Assembly: GCA_016869975.1 (NCBI GenBank)
Contig: VGCZ01000020.1
Coordinates: forward strand, 1-64,000
Length of the DNA stretch: 64,000 bases
Source of the DNA: Alphaproteobacteria bacterium
GTDB lineage: Bacteria; Pseudomonadota; Alphaproteobacteria; Reyranellales; Reyranellaceae
Direction: 5' to 3'
The translations under genes were made by a program, and so were the position numbers. The notes beneath the pieces are model-generated. The model worked only from the letters and a program-made list of their open reading frames with translations, was not told the DNA's origin and made no database searches. Shown in pieces: positions 133 to 57,600 of the stretch (position 1 is its first letter; every line of letters begins with the position of its first letter).

Positions 133-1014
133 GTGGTCGCACAGGGCATCATTCCACCGATGACGACTCCGTTCACGGCGAACGGCGACATCGCGCTGAA
201 CAAGATCGCGGCGCAGGTCGATTGGCTGATCGGCGCTGGCGTGCACGGGCTGGCGGCCTGTGGCAGTACTGGCGAGGGCCACGCGCTCGATGGCGGCGAA
301 TACAAGGACGTGATGGCCGCGACAGTCGCGGCGGCGAAGGGCAGAGCGCCGGTGATCGCCGGCATCATCGTCGACAGCACCCGCGAGGCGATCGCCCGCG
401 GCAAGGCGGTGCGCGACATGAAGGTGGCGGCGCTGCAGGTCACGCCGGTGCACTACCTGTTCCGCCCCGACGACGACGCCATGGTCGAGCACTTCCGCGC
501 CGTGGCGGGTGAGACCGGCGTGCCGGTGATCATCTACAACGTCGTGCCCTGGACCTACCTGTTGCCGGCGCTGCTCTGCCGTATCTTCCGCGAGGTGCCC
601 GGCGTGGTCGGCGTCAAGCAGAGCGCCGGTGACCTGAAGCTGTTCGCCGACCTGATGATCGACGCGCCCAAGGATCGGTTGATCCTGAGCGCCGTCGACG
701 CGCTGCTCTATCCGTCTTTCGTGCTGGGCGCGCACGGCTCGGTGGCCGCTATTCTCACAGCCGCGCCCAAGGCAACCGTGGCGCTGTGGAACGCGGTGAA
801 GGCCGGCGACCATGCGCGCGCCCATGCGCTGCATCGTGCGCTACTGCCGTTGTGGAACGCCATGGTCGGCGACAACCTGCCCGCCTGCACGCGCTTCGTG
901 CAGTCGCTGCAGGGCATCGACCCCGGTGTGCCGCGCGCGCCGATGCCGCCAGCCTCGGCCGAACAACGCGCTCGCATCGAGCCGGCGCTGAAGGCGGTGT
1001 TGGCGCTCGGCTGA
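133..1014 (+). CDS. Dihydrodipicolinate synthase (DapA) family aldolase/lyase
   Basis: This is a class I aldolase of the DapA/N-acetylneuraminate lyase family, a 293-residue TIM barrel of normal family length. The GSTGE motif at residues 44-48 binds the keto-acid carboxylate. Tyr135 (IIYNVVP) and the Schiff-base Lys162 (VGVKQS) are both in their expected places. I chose the GTG at 133 because AAGGGGAG lies 10 bases upstream and family homology begins there; an ATG at 37 would add 32 unrelated residues. True DapA is usually not found with molybdenum hydroxylase genes, so a catabolic lyase acting on a 2-keto acid is likelier than lysine synthesis. A second, diverged DapA-family gene lies at 16595. 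The substrate cannot be told from the sequence. Confidence 0.85.
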   Translation: MVAQGIIPPMTTPFTANGDIALNKIAAQVDWLIGAGVHGLAACGSTGEGHALDGGEYKDVMAATVAAAKGRAPVIAGIIVDSTREAIARGKAVRDMKVAALQVTPVHYLFRPDDDAMVEHFRAVAGETGVPVIIYNVVPWTYLLPALLCRIFREVPGVVGVKQSAGDLKLFADLMIDAPKDRLILSAVDALLYPSFVLGAHGSVAAILTAAPKATVALWNAVKAGDHARAHALHRALLPLWNAMVGDNLPACTRFVQSLQGIDPGVPRAPMPPASAEQRARIEPALKAVLALG

Positions 1015-1344
1015 CTCCAGACACTGGGCATGTCGAACAGTACGTCTGAGGTGCGACGGTCACTGACCAGGCGTCAAGCTGGACGATGCCACGCCGTGTC
1101 GTGGCCAAGCGGCGGATCGATGGATCAAAGCTCGTCTTGAACGTTGAGCATTGCGGGAGCGGCGGGGCAGGTTCACACCGTTCCACGGGCTCAATTGGGG
1201 AATGTTACATAAGGTTGAATAAAGGTCTCGCGCACACGTTTCGAATCGCTTCGCTGCGACGGCAGGCGTAGGCTCGACGCAGGCATAGGCTCCTCGGGTA
1301 GCGCGACGGCCTGCCTCTTGTTCCAGCCGGAAAGCGAGGGAACG
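1015..1344. other. Intergenic region, 330 bp
   Basis: I see no convincing gene here. An AT-richer patch at about 1195-1225 (TTGGGG, then 17 bases, then AATAAA) could be a weak promoter for the molybdenum hydroxylase genes downstream. A GAGGG ribosome-binding site lies at 1336-1340 before the ATG at 1345. Confidence 0.35.
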
Positions 1345-1806
1345 ATGGCGTTCAAGATCAAGCTCAACGGTCAGGACCGCAGCGTGGATGTCGATGGCGA
1401 CATGCCGCTGCTGTGGTTGCTGCGCGACGTGCTGGGCATGACCGGCACGAAGTACGGCTGCGGCGTGGCGCAATGCGGCGCTTGCACCGTGCATGTTGAT
1501 GGCGTCGCGGTGCGTGCCTGTTAGACCACAGTGTCGGCCGCCGCCGACCGCGCGGTCACCACGATCGAGGGTCTGTCGCCCGACGGCATGCATCCGGTGC
1601 AGGTGGCGTGGCGAGATCTCAACGTCGCGCAATGTGGCTACTGCCAGGTCGGCCAGATCATGTCTGCCGCCGCGCTGTTGGCGCAGAAGGCCAAGCCGAG
1701 TGACGACGATATCGACGCCGCGATGAGCGGCAACATCTGTCGCTGCGGCACCTATCAGCGCATCCGCGCCGCGATCCACCGCGTTGCCACGGGAGGCCGG
1801 CGATGA
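1345..1806 (+). pseudogene. (2Fe-2S)-binding subunit of molybdenum hydroxylase (IorA-like), interrupted by an amber codon
   Basis: This encodes the small iron-sulfur subunit of a xanthine dehydrogenase-family hydroxylase, which passes electrons from the molybdenum site. Four Cys of the plant-type cluster ([11 protein letters not shown]...RAC) come first, and the second cluster follows in the same frame (QCGYC ... ICRCG). Total length of about 153 codons matches IorA. Codon 60, at 1522-1524, is TAG. It follows the fourth cluster Cys directly, where family members usually have Gln, so a single CAG-to-TAG transition explains it. Reading continues in frame to the TGA at 1804-1806, which overlaps the ATG of the large subunit. 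Without readthrough the product is a 59-residue fragment lacking the second cluster. A sequencing error is possible, since nothing else in the frame is damaged. Confidence 0.85.
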
Positions 1807-4088
1807 CCCACCATCGATCCCTCCGTCCGGCGATTCGCAATGTCAGTCGCCGGGCGTTCCTCGCCGGCGCAGGCGCCGGCAGCCTGGTGCTGTCGGTCGG
1901 TCTGCCCGCCTGGTCGCAGGAGAAGAAGTTCGCTGCCGCCGGCATGCCCAACGGCCTGCGCGAGGACGTCAAGCTGTTCGTCGCCATCGCCGACGACGGC
2001 ACCGTGACCGTGGTGTGCCATCGCTCCGAGATGGGGCAGGGCATCCGCACCAGCCTGCCGCTGGTGGTGGCCGACGAGCTCGAGGCCGACTGGGCCAAGG
2101 TGAAGGTGGCGCAGGCACCGGGCGACGAGACGCGCTTCGGCAACCAGGACACCGACGGCTCGCGCAGCATGCGCCATCATTTCATGACATTGAGGCGCAT
2201 GGGCGCGGCGGCGCGGGCCATGCTGGTCCAGGCGGCGGCGACCGGCTGGGGCGTGCCAGCTGATCAGGTCGAGGCGGTCAACCACGAGTTGGTCCATCGC
2301 GCGTCGAACCGCAAGATCGGCTACGGCGCGGTCGCCAAGGCCGCCGCGGCGCTGCCGGTGCCCGCATCGGTCAAGCTGAAGGACCCGGCGCAGTTCCGTT
2401 ACATCGGCAAGGGCCAGATCGGCCTGATCGACGGCATGGATATCACGACCGGCCGCGCCGGCTTCGGCATCGACGCGCGGCGCGACGGCATGCTCTACGC
2501 CGTGGTGGCGCGGCCGCCGGTCTATGGGGGAAAGGTCGCGTCGTTCGACGCGGCCGAGGCGATGAAGGTCAAGGGCGTGCTCAAGGTCGTGACGCTCGAT
2601 AGCACACCGCCGCCTTCGGAGTTCGGGCCGCTGGGCGGCGTCGCCGTCGTGGCGTCCAACACCTGGGCCGCGATCAAGGGCCGCGAGGCGCTGAAGATCA
2701 CCTGGGATAACGGCGGTAACGCCAAGTACAGCTCCGACAGCTACAAGGCGATGCTGGAGGCAGCGGTGCGCAAGCCGGGCAAGGTGGTGCGCGACCAGGG
2801 CAACGTCGACGCCGCGATGGCGTCGGCGGCAAGGCGCATCGAGGCCGAGTACTACGTGCCGCACCTGGCGCATGCGACGATCGAGCCGGCCGCCGCGGTT
2901 GTGCAGATCCGCGATGGTGCCTGCGAGGCCTGGGCCTGCGTGCAGTCGCCGGAGGCGGCCAAGGTGCGGCTGTTCAAATTCCTCGGCATCCCGGCCGACA
3001 AGGTGACGGTCAACGTCACCCTGCTGGGCGGCGGCTTCGGGCGCAAGTCGAAGCCCGATTTCGTGGTCGAGGCCGGCCTGCTGTCCAAGGCGATGAATGG
3101 CGCGCCCGTGAAAGTGACATGGACGCGCGAGGACGACCTGCAGAACAGCCCCCTGCATACCGTCACCATGCAGCGGCTCGAAGCTGGCCTCGATGCGTCA
3201 GGCAAGGTCGTGGCCTGGCGGCATCGCAGCGCCTTCCCGTCGATCCTGTCGCTCTTCGCGCCCAACGTTAAGTTGCCGTTCGCGATCGAGCTGGGCATGG
3301 GGCTGGTGAACCTGCCGTTCGACATCCCCAACATCCGGGCGGAGACGCCCGAGGCCGAGGCGCACGCGCGCATCGGCTGGTTCCGCGCAGTGGCCAACAT
3401 CCAGCACGCCTTCGCGATCCAGTCCTTCGTGACCGAGATCGCGCAGGCGCTGGGCAAGGACCCCAAGGACTACCTGCTCGAGCTGATCGGCCCGCCACGC
3501 AAGATCAACCCGACGTCGGTCGGCGACGGCTGGAACCACGGCGAGGATCCGGCGCTCTATCCGATCGACACCGGCCGGCTGCGCGGCGTAGTCGAGGCGG
3601 TGGCCAGGGGCGCCAACTGGGGCCGCACGCTGCCGAAAGGCCGCGGGCTCGGCATCGCGGCGCATTACAGCTTCGTGAGCTATCTCGCCGTGGTGGCCGA
3701 AGTGCAGGCCGATGACAGGGGTGGCATCAGCGTCCCGCGCATCGACATCGCGATCGACTGTGGGCCGCAGATCAACCCCGAGCGCATCCGCTCGCAGCTG
3801 GAGGGCGCGGTGATCATGGGGATGAGCAACGCCATGCTGAGCGAGATCACGTTCAAGGACGGCCGCGTCGTGCAGTCCAACTTCGACGGCTACGAAGTGG
3901 CTCGCATGGACTCTGCGCCGCGCGAGGTGCACGTGCACCTCGTGCCCGCGACCGACTACACGCTGCCGCTCGGCGGTGTCGGCGAGCCTGGCGTGCCGCC
4001 CGTGGCACCGGCACTGGCCAACGCCATCGCCGCCGCGACCGGAAAGCGCATCCGTCAACTGCCCATGCGTCGGCAGCTGGCGGGGTAA
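1803..4088 (+). CDS. Molybdopterin-binding large subunit, isoquinoline 1-oxidoreductase beta-like (IorB type)
   Basis: This is the molybdenum cofactor-binding catalytic subunit of a xanthine dehydrogenase/aldehyde oxidase-family enzyme that hydroxylates aldehydes or N-heterocycles using water. At 761 residues and with no FAD subunit beside it, it fits the two-subunit IorAB type. A twin-arginine signal (SRRAFL, residues 15-20, followed by a hydrophobic stretch) indicates periplasmic export already folded with cofactor. GGGFGRK (near residue 405) and GVGEPG, with the catalytic Glu at about residue 728, are the expected cofactor and active-site motifs. Its ATG overlaps the stop of the iron-sulfur gene, so translation is probably coupled. 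The amber codon in that partner should leave this subunit without its electron acceptor. The substrate is unknown. Confidence 0.88.
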
Positions 4089-45604: not shown

Positions 45605-45913
45605 TCAGATGGCCGATGTCAGCACATGAACGGCACGGTTGGCGATGAGCTCGCGGGTCTTCTCGGCATAGGCCTTCATGTGCGGCGCAACTGAATGGGC
45701 CTTGAGCGCGTCGAGGCTTTCCCACTTCTCGACCACAATGAAGGTGTCCGGTCCCAGTGGCTTGCCGGCGGCGAACCCGTCGGTGTCGATTACCGGAGTG
45801 TACTCGATGCAGCCTTTCTCGGCGCGAACCGCAGGCACGTTGGCGCGCGAATGGCCGAGGACGGTATCACGCATTCCGGGCTTGGCGGTGATGACGGCAA
45901 TTACATGGATCAT
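45605..45913 (-). CDS. Antibiotic biosynthesis monooxygenase (ABM) domain protein
   Basis: This is a small dimeric ferredoxin-like protein of 102 residues. MIHVIAVITAKPGMRDTVLG and GCIEYTPVIDTDG, then TFIVVEKWESLDALKAHSVA, are the ABM/YgiN pattern. Relatives act as quinol or small-molecule monooxygenases without a cofactor, or only as stress proteins. GGGAG precedes the ATG at 45913; the open frame upstream overlaps the next gene. It lies 35 bp behind the D-aminoacylase-type gene and is probably in the same transcript. Confidence 0.88.
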   Translation of the reverse strand: MIHVIAVITAKPGMRDTVLGHSRANVPAVRAEKGCIEYTPVIDTDGFAAGKPLGPDTFIVVEKWESLDALKAHSVAPHMKAYAEKTRELIANRAVHVLTSAI

Positions 45914-53370: not shown

Positions 53371-54141
53371 ATGAGTGTCCTCAAACGCCTGATCGAAGGC
53401 TTCGTCGATTTTCGCGCCGGCTACTGGCGCGAAAATCAACCGTTGTTCGAGCGCTTGGCGCGCGAGGGGCAGCAGCCCAAGGTCCTGATCGTCGCCTGCG
53501 TCGATTCCCGGGTGGACCCTGGCATCCTCACCAGCACGAAACCGGGCGACATCTTCACCATTCGCAATGTCGCCGCGATCGTGCCGCCCTACGAGCCGGA
53601 CGGCCGCCACCACGGCACCAGCGCGGCGTTGGAGTTCGGCGTGCGTGCGCTGGGCGTCGAGCACATCGTCGTGCTGGGCCACGCGCTGTGCGGCGGCATG
53701 CGCGCACTTCTGGCCGAAGACGACGCGACGCTGGCGCAGTTCGAGTTCCTCAAGCCATGGACCGAGATTGTTCGCCGCGCCGCCGACACGGTGCGACTGG
53801 GCGCGCCCGAGCTCGATGCGGTGGCGACTCAGAAGGCGGTCGAGCAGGCCGGTGTGGTCGTCTCCATGGGTAACGTACTGACGTTCCCCTGGGTGCGCGA
53901 GAAGGTCCAAGCGGGAACCATCGCCATCCATGGCTGGCACTTCGATTTTCGCAACGGCGAGCTGTCAGCCTTCGATCCCCGCGAGGCGCGTTTCGTGCCG
54001 ATTGCCGCCGCCAGCGATCCAGAGCGGTCGATCACGTCGGGCAACGCCGAGCAGCTCGACACCGATCGTCTGCTGTCACATCTGGTAAACAATTTCCGCA
54101 CCCGCAAGCCCGGCATGATCACGGCCAGCGGCACGCTGTAG
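53371..54141 (+). CDS. Beta-class carbonic anhydrase
   Basis: This zinc enzyme interconverts carbon dioxide and bicarbonate. Ligands are Cys43 with the Asp45-Arg47 dyad (VACVDSRVDP), and His104 and Cys107 (VLGHALCGG). RNVAAIVPPYEPDG and GTSAALEFGVRALGV are the family's dimer and core segments. At 256 residues it has a C-terminal extension after GWHFDFRNGELSAFD, as in the proteobacterial type. It lies 12 bp behind the binding protein gene, so bicarbonate supply may be linked to growth on the imported acid. A hairpin ends the run at 54150. Confidence 0.95.
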   Translation: MSVLKRLIEGFVDFRAGYWRENQPLFERLAREGQQPKVLIVACVDSRVDPGILTSTKPGDIFTIRNVAAIVPPYEPDGRHHGTSAALEFGVRALGVEHIVVLGHALCGGMRALLAEDDATLAQFEFLKPWTEIVRRAADTVRLGAPELDAVATQKAVEQAGVVVSMGNVLTFPWVREKVQAGTIAIHGWHFDFRNGELSAFDPREARFVPIAAASDPERSITSGNAEQLDTDRLLSHLVNNFRTRKPGMITASGTL

Positions 54142-54149
54142 GCGTGAAA

Positions 54150-54175
54150 CGGGCGGGACCGTGTGGTCCCGCCCG
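54150..54175. terminator. Bidirectional hairpin between the carbonic anhydrase and repeat-protein genes
   Basis: CGGGCGGGACC, a GTGT loop and GGTCCCGCCCG form a perfect 11-bp stem nine bases after the carbonic anhydrase stop. A short TTTC follows on each side. Both convergent genes probably end here. Confidence 0.7.
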
Positions 54176-54182
54176 CTTTCAC

Positions 54183-54641
54183 TCAGCGCCAGCCGCGCCG
54201 GTTGGGCGAGGTGCCCGGGCCGCCGCGCGGGCCCGGCGGGTTTTCCCAGTTGGTGCCGCGACCGCCGAGCGGGCCAGGCGGATTGTTGTCACGGTCGCGG
54301 AAGTAACCGTAGCGCCGGTCGGGCGAGGCGCCGGGGCCACCACGCGGGCCGGGCGGGTTTTCCCAGTTGGTGCCGCGGCCACCAAGCGGGCCAGGCGGAT
54401 TGTTGTCACGGTCGCGGAAGTAACCGTAGCGCCGGTCGGGTGAGGCACCCGGACCACCGCGCGGGCCCGGCGGGTTTTCCCAGTTGGTACCGGGACCGCC
54501 GCGCCAGCCGGGCGGGTTGTTGTCGCGGTCGTGGAAGTAGCCCCAGCGCCGGTCGGGCGAGGCACCCGGACCACCGCGCGGGCCGGGCGGGTTCTCCCAG
54601 TTGGTGCCCGGGCCGCCACGCCAGCCCGGCGGGTTGTTGTC
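54183..54641 (-). repeat. Four direct DNA repeats of 117 bp
   Basis: Four in-frame copies encode the 39-residue units, the last being shortened to 35 codons. A marker sequence, GGGTTTTCCCAGTTGGT on the plus strand, recurs every 117 bases (54239, 54356, and onwards with small changes). Copy number may vary between strains by slippage. Confidence 0.85.
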
Positions 54642-54731
54642 GAAATCGCGGGCGACGGCCGGAGCCGTCGCGATCAGGGCGACCAGGATCGCCGAGGCAG
54701 CGGCGAGGGCGCCATTTTTGCCGAATCGCAT
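54183..54731 (-). CDS. Secreted protein of four 39-residue tandem repeats
   Basis: I do not recognise a function. After a signal peptide (ALAAASAILVALIATAPAVA, cleavage near AVA-RD), the mature 154 residues consist only of four units: residues 31-69, 70-108, 109-147 and 148-182. Each reads about DNNPPG(W/P)(R/L)GG, then (P/R)GTNWENPPGPRGGPG, then (A/T)SP(D/N)RR(W/Y)GYF. Units 1-2 have PPGWRGGPG and units 3-4 have PPGPLGGRG, suggesting duplication in pairs. Gly, Pro, Arg, Asn and Asp dominate and Cys is absent, so an unstructured or extended surface or periplasmic protein is likely. AAGGAG before the ATG at 54731 decides the start. Confidence 0.8.
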   Translation of the reverse strand: MRFGKNGALAAASAILVALIATAPAVARDFDNNPPGWRGGPGTNWENPPGPRGGPGASPDRRWGYFHDRDNNPPGWRGGPGTNWENPPGPRGGPGASPDRRYGYFRDRDNNPPGPLGGRGTNWENPPGPRGGPGASPDRRYGYFRDRDNNPPGPLGGRGTNWENPPGPRGGPGTSPNRRGWR

Positions 54732-54851
54732 GGTCCTGAACTCCTTCATGACCGCCGGAAATTCGGCTGGTCTGACAGGAGGTACGGATTGCTCAACGCG
54801 CCGATCCCCGGCGGCCAGGCGAAATTTCTCCCGGGGATGTTCAGGCGCCTC

Positions 54852-55760
54852 CTAGCGTACTAGTGGCGGCCGGCCGCCGGGCAGTCGCAGCAGGTCGGTC
54901 GCCAGCGCCGTGCCGGCGAGGATCAGCGGGCCGCCCAGCAGCAGGCCGGGGCGGATGCGCTCGTCGAGCAACAGGACCGCCCACAGCGCGCCGAACAGCG
55001 GGATGAGGTAGGTGACGGTCATCGCCCGGGTCGGGCCGATATCGGCGATCAGGCGGAAGTTCAGCAGGTAGGCGGCGCCGGTGCACAGCACGCCCAGCGC
55101 GCCAGCGGCGAGCCAGATGGCGGGTGGCGGGAAGGCTGTCGGCGGCGACAGCGGCACCAGAGGCGCGGCCACGAGCGACGCCGCGATCATAGCCCCCAAC
55201 GCGTTGTCGAAAGCATCGGTGCGGATCGTGCGTGCCTTCAGGTAGACGCCGACCACGCCATAGAGAAATGGGGCGACCAGCGCCGCGGCCAGGGCGCTGG
55301 CGATGCGCGTGACGTCGCCCACGACCCGCGACTCCAGGATGGCTTCAGCCGACAGGATCGCCACACCGGCGAACCCGAGCATCAGCCCAAGGGCGACCGA
55401 GCGCGCGATCGGCGTGCGCAGCCACAGCGCGGCCAGCCCGGCGGTGAAGGCGGGTGCCAGCGCGTTGAACAACGCCAGCAGCGAGGCGGGCAGGGTCAGC
55501 GCGGCGTAGGCGAACAGCAGGAAGGGCAACGCGGAGTTCAGGGTGCCGACCAGCAGGAAATGGCCGGCGTCGCGCCGCGTGTTGAGCTGTCGACGCAGGA
55601 CAACGGCGACCAAGGCGAGGAACAGCGCGGCCAATCCTAGGCGCAGCGCGATCAGGGCCACGGGTCCGAGATACGGCACGGCCATGGCGACCAGCGCGAA
55701 GGAGCCGCCCCACAGTGCGCCCAAGGTCAGCAGGCGCGATGCGCTCGCGGCGTCGATCAA
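54852..55760 (-). CDS. EamA/DMT family transporter
   Basis: This 302-residue inner-membrane carrier has ten predicted segments in two repeats (LLTLGALWGGSFALVAMAVP; FLLVGTLNSALPFLLFAYAA; GALGVLCTGAAYLLNFRLIA; LLLDERIRPGLLLGGPLILA). RhtA/YdcZ-like EamA carriers mainly export amino acids and related compounds. The start is a TTG at 55760 whose last bases overlap the stop of the GST gene, so translation is coupled. Longer in-frame extensions are antisense to or overlap the GST gene and are not used. Confidence 0.85.
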   Translation of the reverse strand: MIDAASASRLLTLGALWGGSFALVAMAVPYLGPVALIALRLGLAALFLALVAVVLRRQLNTRRDAGHFLLVGTLNSALPFLLFAYAALTLPASLLALFNALAPAFTAGLAALWLRTPIARSVALGLMLGFAGVAILSAEAILESRVVGDVTRIASALAAALVAPFLYGVVGVYLKARTIRTDAFDNALGAMIAASLVAAPLVPLSPPTAFPPPAIWLAAGALGVLCTGAAYLLNFRLIADIGPTRAMTVTYLIPLFGALWAVLLLDERIRPGLLLGGPLILAGTALATDLLRLPGGRPPLVR

Positions 55761-56446
55761 TCCCGTGTCTCGTACAGCGAGTCGATCGGCGCTCGCGAGA
55801 AGCGCACGACCGGTTCGGCGAGAACGCGCGTTTCCCAGTCGCGGAATGCCGCGTCGGCGAAAGCCGTCTCGCAATACGCTTGCGCCGCCTTCGAGAGCGC
55901 GACGGCGTAAGTACGAAAGCGCGTCGCCACCGGCAGGTAGAAGGCGTCGGCCATGGAGCGGGCGCCGAACAGCCATGGTCCATCGGTGGCGTTGGCGGCG
56001 CGCAACGCCGACCACAGGCGCTCGACGCGCTCGATGTCGCGCCACGTATCCTCGGGCAGATCGGTCGCCACGCAGCGGCGGCGGATGTTCATCGGCAGGT
56101 CGCGGCGCAGGGCCGGGAAGCCGGAATGCATCTCGGCGCAGGCCGCCCGGATCACGGCGCGGCGTTCGCGATCGACGGGCAGCAACGCCCCGGGGGTTCC
56201 GCCCTCGGCCGCCCATTCGGCGATGGCGAGGCTGTCCCAGATGGTCGTGGCGCCGACCCGTAGGGCGGGCACCTTGCCGCTGGGCGAGACGGCGCGCACC
56301 GCGGTGATTCCCTCGGCGCCGTAACCCGGCTGGTCGAGCTCGATCAGCTTCTCGTCGAACGCGATGCCGGCCCAGCGCAGGCAAAGCCAGGGGCGCAGCG
56401 ACCAGCTGGAGTAGTTGCGATTGCCGATGTGGAGATGGGGTGTCAT
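55757..56446 (-). CDS. Glutathione S-transferase family protein
   Basis: This 229-residue protein has the thioredoxin-like N-terminal domain (LHIGNRNYSSWSLRPWLCLR, with Ser in the YSSWSLRPW motif). GITAVRAVSPSGKVPALRVG is the cis-Pro segment, and TTIWDSLAIAEWAAE contains the Ser that binds gamma-glutamyl. An all-helical C-terminal domain follows. It resembles the YibF/stringent-starvation-like GST group. I chose the ATG at 56446. It is the first gene of a two-gene unit with an EamA exporter, suggesting conjugation and export, which is inference. Confidence 0.9.
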   Translation of the reverse strand: MTPHLHIGNRNYSSWSLRPWLCLRWAGIAFDEKLIELDQPGYGAEGITAVRAVSPSGKVPALRVGATTIWDSLAIAEWAAEGGTPGALLPVDRERRAVIRAACAEMHSGFPALRRDLPMNIRRRCVATDLPEDTWRDIERVERLWSALRAANATDGPWLFGARSMADAFYLPVATRFRTYAVALSKAAQAYCETAFADAAFRDWETRVLAEPVVRFSRAPIDSLYETRD

Positions 56447-56586
56447 GGCGCGGCGAGCGTAGACGTGGCGCCGCTTCCATCGCAGATCGCCTGGCGCCAA
56501 TATCCGGTGGATTCGCGCCAAGTTCCGCCGCGCCGCGCGTGGCGTCCAACCTATCGACGACCGACGACAATCGATCCGGAACAGCC

Positions 56587-57600
56587 ATGCCCTTCGATCA
56601 CAGTTCCGCCCAGGCGATTCGAACGCGCCGCGATGCGCACCAGACGCGACCGCTGGCCGCCATCCTCGCCTATGACGGCCTGTGTACGTTCGAGTACGGC
56701 ATCGCGCTCGAGCTCTTCGCCTTGCCGCGACCGGAGCTCGACGTGCCGTGGTACGTCAGCCGCGTCGTCGGCGTCGACGGGCGGCGCTTGCGCGGCTCGG
56801 GTGGCGTGACAGTGGCGGCCGAGACGGACCTTGCCGGCCTGCGCGACGCGTCCCTCATCGTCTTGCCGGGCTGGCGCGATCATCGTGAACCGCCGCCGCG
56901 ACGGCTGCTCGCGGCGCTATGCGATGCGGCCGACGCCGGTACGCGGTTCTTGACGATCTGCTCCGGCGCTTTCGTGCTCGGCCATGCCGGGCTGCTCGAT
57001 GGGCGGCGCGCCACCACGCATTGGCGATACATCGACGAGCTCGAGCGGGCGTTTCCCAGGGTCAGCGTCGATCGCGCGGCGCTCTACGTCGAGGACGGCG
57101 CGATCACGACCTCGGCGGGCAGCGCCGCCGGCATCGACGCCGGTCTGGCCGTGATCCGGAATGATTTCGGCGCGCGTGTCGCGGCGATGGTCGCGCGCCG
57201 CCTGGTGATGTCACCGCATCGCGCGGGTGATCAGCCGCAATTGGTAGAGGCGCCGGTCAGCGTGCGTTCGGGCCGCACGATTTCCGCCACGCTCGATTGG
57301 GCGCGGCGCAACCTGCATCGACGGATCGGCGTGGGCGCGTTGGCCGCGCAGTCGGCGATGAGCGGCCGGTCGTTCTTCCGGCACTTCGAGGCGGCGACCG
57401 GCACGTCGCCGCTCGCCTGGCTGCGCCAGGCGCGCCTCGTGCGGGCGCGCGAACTGCTGGAGGGCACGATGCTGTCGATGGTCGAGGTGGCCCGGCAATG
57501 CGGCTTCGGCTCGCCGGAGACCTTCCGCGCCAGCTTCCGCCGCGCGCTCGGCGTCTCGCCTGCCGCCTACCGCCGCCGGTTTAGCCCGTCGCGGCCTTGA
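56587..57600 (+). CDS. GlxA/FtrA-type AraC family regulator with DJ-1/PfpI domain
   Basis: This 337-residue regulator has an N-terminal DJ-1/PfpI amidotransferase-like ligand domain (LAAILAYDGLCTFEYGIALE; the nucleophile-elbow segment FLTICSGAFVLGHAGLLDG with Cys near residue 125). The C-terminal AraC helix-turn-helix pair runs from about residue 235 (RTISATLDWARRNLHRRIGV; FRASFRRALGVSPAAYRRRF). The GlxA group regulates nitrogen-compound or glyoxylate/arginine-related metabolism. The ATG at 56587 is 140 bp from the divergent GST gene start, which it may control. Its end overlaps the convergent CoA-transferase gene by 20 bp. Confidence 0.9.
   Translation: MPFDHSSAQAIRTRRDAHQTRPLAAILAYDGLCTFEYGIALELFALPRPELDVPWYVSRVVGVDGRRLRGSGGVTVAAETDLAGLRDASLIVLPGWRDHREPPPRRLLAALCDAADAGTRFLTICSGAFVLGHAGLLDGRRATTHWRYIDELERAFPRVSVDRAALYVEDGAITTSAGSAAGIDAGLAVIRNDFGARVAAMVARRLVMSPHRAGDQPQLVEAPVSVRSGRTISATLDWARRNLHRRIGVGALAAQSAMSGRSFFRHFEAATGTSPLAWLRQARLVRARELLEGTMLSMVEVARQCGFGSPETFRASFRRALGVSPAAYRRRFSPSRP

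Follow-up and report, generated by a model that had tools for sequence, protein, structure and literature searches.

The 64,000-nucleotide stretch analysed here (the window; positions 1 to 64,000 of contig VGCZ01000020.1, assembly GCA_016869975.1, from a member of the Reyranellaceae) encodes on its reverse strand, at 54183–54731 with the stop codon included, a protein of 182 residues built of four near-identical units. With moderate confidence, we consider this repeat protein most likely to be a secreted, disordered, multivalent effector of a cation-linked envelope response controlled by an extracytoplasmic function (ECF) sigma factor. Its assignment to a regulon sharing the promoter element GGGGAT-N17-CGTA is well supported by comparison of genome sequences, and the sigma factor encoded within that regulon probably uses the element. 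Because EF-hands are fused to, located next to and co-regulated with genes that carry the unit (motif genes in the following), the response appears to be linked to cations. The reading also takes in DUF1800 and DUF1501 genes, which adjoin a motif gene in two lineages unrelated to each other and are also part of the sigma operon.

The repeat protein and its unit

The protein begins with a Sec-type signal peptide of about 27 residues that ends in AVA (54651–54731, read from the sequence). It is followed by unit 1 (54549–54647), unit 2 (54432–54530), unit 3 (54315–54413) and unit 4 (54198–54296), all on the reverse strand, each a 33-residue core recognized by our unit profile A1 with E values of 2.4e-16, 1.7e-16, 1.5e-17 and 2.2e-16, respectively. 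The core consensus is D-x-D-x-NPPG-xx-GG-x-G-TNWENPPG-xx-GGPG-ASPDR. It is composed of two 14-residue halves, NPPGxxGGxGTNWE and NPPGxxGGPGASPD, which share on average 8.1 of 14 residues (226 half pairs), and 23 lone half-units are found in 15 of 101 motif proteins, ten of these 15 being Omnitrophota loci. At the DNA level, Tandem Repeats Finder reports an array at 54195–54641 with a period of 117, 3.8 copies, 88% matches and a score of 635, compared with scores of 50–58 for its remaining four rows in the window. The preliminary description of this DNA, a secreted protein of four Gly/Pro/Arg repeats with a 117 bp unit, is thus borne out.

The 154 residues from position 29 onwards contain 44% Pro and Gly, 22 Arg, no Lys and no Cys. 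AlphaFold gives no fold in the repeats (mean pLDDT, the predicted local distance difference test score, of 51.6) and is confident only for the helix of the signal peptide; a Stenotrophomonas homologue scores 43.0. The extended surface or matrix role suggested earlier is compatible with this absence of a predicted fold.

The start codon at 54731 is supported by a ribosome-binding site, AAGGAG (54741–54746, reverse strand), located 9 nt upstream, and by the fact that the alternative ATG at 54749 runs into a stop in the homologous locus L016, where it reads ATG TAG; the AGGAG is kept in L016. The leader between 54732 and 54787 is nearly identical in the window and in L016. It may hold a further regulatory element, since the genes themselves differ with a dS of 0.35.

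A shared promoter element and an ECF sigma operon

The element GGGGAT-N17-CGTA was first spotted in Reyranellaceae members when upstream regions were compared. In the window it occupies 54783–54809 on the reverse strand, ends 51 nt 5′ of the start of the repeat gene and is kept in L016. It occurs within 300 nt upstream in ten of 103 motif-gene regions, from eight distinct genomes, against 0.02 expected from plain mononucleotide shuffles. The sites lie 32–87 nt from the start, except for that of L033 (228 nt from an assumed start). Over whole genomes, exact sites outnumber the reversed pattern by 20 to 5 in the window genome (G000), 22 to 7 in G001, which belongs to the same genus, and 6 to 2 in G007.

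In the window genome these sites precede the genes of an ECF sigma factor (Sigma70_r2 and r4 domains), a zf-HC2 anti-sigma factor, a secreted EF-hand protein, nine small secreted proteins of about 74–103 residues with a high content of Lys, Pro and Gly, and a further two secreted proteins of larger size. A script placed a signal-peptide open reading frame (ORF) after 14 of the 20 sites (background 14%), but the one that lies within the ECF gene is implausible, so that 13 remain. Six sites have no signal-peptide target. The small Lys/Pro/Gly-rich set comprises L250, L254, L255, L256, L258, L262 and L263 in G000 and L271, L275, L280 and L283 in G001. VT-x-KG motifs are found in several of its members and L254 encodes NPPG. 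Four of these small proteins were compared with Pfam and none scored above the cut-off, the NPPG-bearing one giving a sub-threshold match and the three others none. The element also precedes, in both G000 and G001, the genes L253/L277, which we take to be secreted esterase- or depolymerase-like, and L260/L287, presumably membrane desaturase-like.

A second exact copy, found by the genome scan at 54833–54859 on the forward strand, is oriented oppositely to the element of the repeat gene and forms with it an inverted repeat around GAAATTTC. The arrangement is kept in G001, where the copy is in the same place (45683–45709). Downstream of this forward copy, no signal-peptide ORF was found within 130 nt.

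Other stress promoters are near chance upstream of 97 motif genes (RpoE 1, RpoH 0, CpxR 0, RpoN 0, strict EcfG 1). A loose EcfG pattern was found nine times against 3.15 expected, but seven of the nine come from one syntenic Hyphomonadaceae-type group, and we rejected it.

The sigma operon of the window genome reads, in order, ECF sigma factor, zf-HC2 anti-sigma factor, Metal_resist, DUF1800 and DUF1501. The ECF was found in 21 of 30 genomes searched (E 1e-12), and all 21 loci carry the exact element 5′ of the sigma gene, the anti-sigma gene or both. Together these loci hold 28 element sites in 73.5 kb, compared with none of the reversed pattern. The anti-sigma gene is retained in 21 of the 21 loci, and Metal_resist and DUF1800 in 20 each.

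We then compared the ECF with the element upstream of motif genes in the 18 motif-bearing genomes examined for both. Eight have both (G000, G001, G006, G007, G013, G1104, G037 and G220, the last two from outside the family of the window), one has the ECF only (G003), nine have neither (G002, which is 67% complete, G076, G266, G545, G584, G689, G691, G696 and G700) and none has the element only. A one-sided hypergeometric test, calculated by hand and ignoring kinship, gives p = 2e-4 for this co-occurrence; the value computed for the table without G1104 is 4e-4. Moreover, the ECF is present in 12 of the 12 searched family members that lack the unit, which suggests that the unit belongs to a broader system as one of its variable outputs.

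Conservation of the unit

The repeat gene is under purifying selection, as judged from a dN/dS of 0.12 against L016 (dS 0.35, dN 0.041). The two species both have four copies. The best L016 match of units 1, 2 and 4 is the unit of the same number; unit 3 is the exception: its nearest relative is unit 4 of the same gene, as though it had been overwritten. Over the 99-nt cores the top pairs within the window are 3–4 (0.91) and 1–2 (0.89), and over 117 nt they are 1–2 (0.872), 2–3 (0.855) and 3–4 (0.851). Recent duplication of units 1–2 and 3–4, as previously suggested, can therefore be kept at most for the second pair, which itself falls behind 2–3 over the full 117 nt.

Between genomes the unit is kept at least as strictly as a ribosomal protein. 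Mean unit identity is 0.81, compared with 0.75 for S12 (14 genomes), and the units are the more alike in 79 of the 91 pairs of genomes; the 13 genomes paired with G000 come from loci found by exact 8-residue patterns, which favours conserved units. G692 was dropped from this comparison because its S12 gene is in two pieces, and here as in the unit census units outside the regular expressions are uncounted. Mean column identity in profile A1 is 82%. Each core has one tryptophan, invariant in 187 distinct units, although the search expression itself fixes this residue. In 28 units from profile-found Omnitrophota loci, N5, P6, P7, G8, G11, G14, W17, N19 and G26 are all at 100%, of which N5, P6, G11, G14 and W17 are fixed by the expression used.

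This conservation bears on a first rival, a passive elastomer-like or spacer protein in which a hydrated Pro/Gly chain would matter by composition and not by sequence. The 44% Pro and Gly of the mature protein and the absence of a predicted fold suit such a role, but the sequence is nearly fixed, both in the A1 columns and relative to S12, and we regard a mere spacer as improbable. Core length is constant in the counted units while the start-to-start spacing runs from 34 to 135 residues, a combination that would suit independent binding beads better than a solenoid.

Recent horizontal transfer was considered as a source of the conservation and rejected, as the GC content at fourfold degenerate sites (GC4) of the motif gene tracks the GC content of its locus (r = 0.91, 101 genes). 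Because of this agreement, motif genes look long resident.

Distribution across bacteria

The window genome has one such gene, and the repeat protein of G001 is identical to that of L016. A protein query found the gene in eight of 61 relatives and in five of 289 genomes of a class sample. The unit profile found it in eight of 75 genomes of the family, including all four of the genus, and in three of 398 genomes of a phylum sample. It also recognized 13 of the 198 genomes in the family to which the Stenotrophomonas genome G689 belongs and 12 of the 149 in that of the Caulobacter genome G691, each set including one weak match (E 0.009). For the phylum of the Omnitrophota genome G690, 26 of 193 genomes were positive, six of them weakly (E 5e-6 to 0.01) and another with 8e-10. 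Leaving aside this Omnitrophota sample and the two weak matches at 0.009, every positive genome has a best E value of 2.4e-15 or lower.

Of 215 candidate stretches returned by a contig search, 171 proved to code for a relative, and we retained the 80 best; as these 80 were found through exact 8-residue patterns, they favour conserved units. Their titles name alpha-, beta-, gamma- and deltaproteobacteria, Omnitrophota, Nitrospira, Planctomycetota, Myxococcota and a cyanobacterium. Metagenome-assembled genomes account for many of them, with isolates also represented, among them Stenotrophomonas maltophilia D457 and several Pseudoxanthomonas. The pattern is thus found in alphaproteobacteria, where the preliminary description would have sought it, yet it spreads far beyond them.

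No significant match to the window protein was found in Pfam, NCBIfam, PHROGs or the PDB sequences, and the PDB gave none for the unit profile either. The earlier view that it belongs to no known family agrees with this result, as does the search for a described family of fixed copy number: none matched, and 85 relatives vary from one to five units. Plasmid and phage collections gave no match, and the exact peptide patterns were not matched in viral contigs. No description of the protein family or of the regulon was found in the open-access literature, a search with most subscription journals and all preprints outside its range. The string NWENPPG is absent from that literature; six shorter strings led to a paper on a frog foam protein, which we take as chance.

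EF-hands, partner domains and gene neighbours

An EF-hand pattern is present in 15 of 101 motif proteins, compared with seven of 702 other ORFs, four of these seven being just downstream of a motif gene. Pfam recognizes an EF-hand in nine of 57 members scanned. The fusion or adjacency occurs in unrelated bacteria: an EF-hand gene follows within about 1 kb in L021, L027, L031, L050, L072 and L079, as confirmed by Pfam in all but L021. Other relatives combine the unit with LTPEQR-type helices, and Xanthomonadaceae- and Caulobacter-type members have a short aromatic stretch between two units. In Stenotrophomonas/Caulobacter-type members (L065, 4980–5405), a Cys before unit 2 and another near the C-terminus are conserved; these could close the second unit by a disulfide.

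A two-component system is divergent to the motif gene in L018, L027, L031 and L050. Pfam identifies a RisS-type sensor domain in the kinases of L050 and L031, and the kinases of L018, L027 and L031 share 46–48% identity with the L050 kinase. The two-component pair of L065 is a different one. DUF1800 followed by DUF1501 is found directly downstream of the motif gene in L050 and L065.

Several neighbourhoods are recorded here for their own sake. A second form of the gene with a single unit exists in the same genus (L007 in G003, L008 in G002 and L009 in G001), with an N-terminal part rich in Tyr, Trp and Arg and no promoter element. The Omnitrophota loci L021 and L079 share a run of genes that we take to be phosphoglycerate-mutase-like, motif, PEBP-like, EF-hand and ABC ATPase-like, the EF-hand assignment not being part of this assumption. 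In the betaproteobacterial loci L020, L025 and L029 the motif gene comes after a presumably DinG-like helicase gene, and a gene that we assume to be HIRAN-like is next in L020 and L025. In the window, three genes at 54861–57600 (presumably an EamA-like transporter, a glutathione-transferase-like and an AraC-like gene) separate the repeat gene from a CaiB-like gene, which it directly follows in L016. On its other side, a perfect 11-bp inverted repeat (54150–54175) lies between the repeat gene and a convergent beta-carbonic-anhydrase-like gene and is possibly a terminator shared by both; a terminator and sigma-70 scan of 54050–54950 found neither and did not call this repeat a terminator. Finally, L036 holds at 866–3099 a bufferin-like cluster near its motif gene, with an MNIO-family enzyme (PF05114), DUF2063 genes and a Cys-rich secreted precursor-like ORF.

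These architectures bear on two rivals in which the chain would be a substrate. Eukaryotic prohormones are multi-copy precursors that are cut into peptides, and the repeat protein might likewise be cut at basic linkers into near-identical peptides with a signalling role. A signal peptide, conserved cores and variable linkers fit this idea, and a basic pair lies within four residues after the core SP in 98 of 219 units. However, no basic pair follows in more than half of the units, the chain of many relatives also contains EF-hands, helices or an aromatic domain, and no processing enzyme was noticed nearby. We regard a precursor function as improbable. Far less probable still is a ribosomally synthesized and post-translationally modified peptide of the MNIO/bufferin type. 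In its favour are one weak hit among 37 members to an NCBIfam model of MNIO-class peptides (E 0.18) and the enzyme located about 2.5 kb from the motif gene in L036. That enzyme stands beside its own Cys-rich precursor-like ORF and has no relative among the other ORFs compared. An MNIO enzyme was found in one of 84 loci (L036) and none in the neighbourhood of the window gene, whose mature product has no Cys.

A secreted protein binding exopolysaccharide or cell-wall glycan through its invariant Trp and Pro/Gly turns, with no role for Ca2+, has a stronger claim. The secretion signal, the repeats and the single Trp per core agree with it, as does the reported presence of DUF1800/DUF1501 in operons with bacterial chitin synthases (PMC5122149, available in part). 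This matrix or polysaccharide-binding role, raised in the preliminary description, is compatible with the ECF regulon. Yet no carbohydrate-binding domain was found and the EF-hand association is left unexplained; we regard it as possible but rather unlikely.

A proposed role in a cation-linked envelope response

We return to the effector of an ECF-controlled, cation-linked envelope response. An envelope cue, probably a cation or envelope stress, would release the ECF sigma factor, which would then transcribe its own operon from GGGGAT-N17-CGTA and thus be autoregulated. The same factor would drive the repeat protein together with the secreted EF-hand protein and some nine small secreted proteins of low complexity. 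The repeat protein, exported by Sec, would stay unfolded, each 33-residue core with its two NPPGxxGGxG halves and invariant Trp acting as an independent binding bead on flexible linkers. With one to five copies, the protein would bind multivalently, either in the periplasm or at the cell surface. We infer that this binding is most probably linked to Ca2+ and belongs to a coat or matrix of the envelope, with Ca2+ itself, a Ca2+-loaded partner or a glycan as candidate ligands of the unit.

Several observations weigh against this proposal. Nine of the motif-bearing genomes have neither the ECF nor the element, from which it follows that control would be lineage-specific. The single-unit genes of G001, G002 and G003 have no element, although G001 and G003 carry the ECF. 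By the reversed-pattern control, about five of the 20 sites in G000 may be chance. The EF-hand excess is weaker when small signal-peptide ORFs serve as the reference (15 of 101 against three of 101, p 0.005), and most motif proteins have no EF-hand, the window protein giving no Pfam match to one. Some diverged units (L167, L168) have lost the acidic residues of core positions 1, 3 and 18. Finally, DUF1800/DUF1501 adjoin the motif gene in only two of 84 loci, so that synteny alone is weak evidence.

More tentatively, the data may reflect an undescribed envelope-response system. It would comprise a regulator, a Metal_resist/LTXXQ protein, DUF1800, DUF1501, a secreted EF-hand protein and a group of small, disordered proteins that are likewise secreted, and its conserved effector across several phyla would be the near-invariant unfolded 33-residue module. 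The regulator would be the ECF in some alphaproteobacteria and a two-component system in some beta- and gammaproteobacteria. If this is true, DUF1800 and DUF1501 acquire their first functional context, and the module defines a new recognition motif linked to calcium. The ECF-type promoter, the co-regulated EF-hand protein, the DUF1800/DUF1501 operon and the multi-phylum spread are all new beyond the preliminary description. Standard annotation cannot see a module that has no predicted fold, is kept no less strictly than S12 and is absent from Pfam and NCBIfam. Through the shared element a concrete regulon is defined that can be tested and that places the unexplained DUF1800 and DUF1501 beside EF-hand and metal-sensor-like proteins. 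Acting on one sigma factor would open the function of all its members to study.

Comparison with known systems

Collagen-like, elastin-like and RTX repeat proteins are likewise Gly-rich, repetitive and extracytoplasmic. However, the longest Gly-X-Y run in the window protein is three, runs of at least four occur in seven of 101 motif proteins, and the RTX nonapeptide GGxGxDxUx is found in none of the 101.

The metal-sensing CnrYXH system comprises an ECF, an anti-sigma factor and a Metal_resist (PF13801) protein, with a metal efflux pump as output. Here too the predicted ECF, anti-sigma and Metal_resist genes form one operon, with all three in 20 of 21 loci, but the next genes are DUF1800 and DUF1501 and not a metal efflux pump.

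DUF1800/DUF1501 pairs accompany bacterial chitin synthase genes in operons, according to the available part of the source (PMC5122149). In our data the pair is in the sigma operon and beside the motif gene in L050 and L065; no chitin synthase was noticed, no search having been aimed at one. No function emerges from the accessible parts of papers that treat DUF1800 in coccolithophores, in marine metagenomes and in connection with type VI secretion.

The CaBP-SigV circuit of Caulobacter vibrioides ties an ECF sigma factor to a Sec-exported periplasmic EF-hand protein, with autoregulation, and is linked to Ca2+ limitation, acid and the extracellular matrix, the cabp mutant making more of the latter (PMC13171946, available in part). 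It differs from the system described here in its −35 consensus, GGAAG/CC and not GGGGAT, and the available text mentions no repeat protein and does not contain the word DUF (PMC13171946). Our ECF has no match at 1e-12 in the Caulobacter genome searched, G691. In coupling an ECF to an exported EF-hand protein and in its autoregulation, CaBP-SigV nevertheless offers a precedent for the system that we propose.
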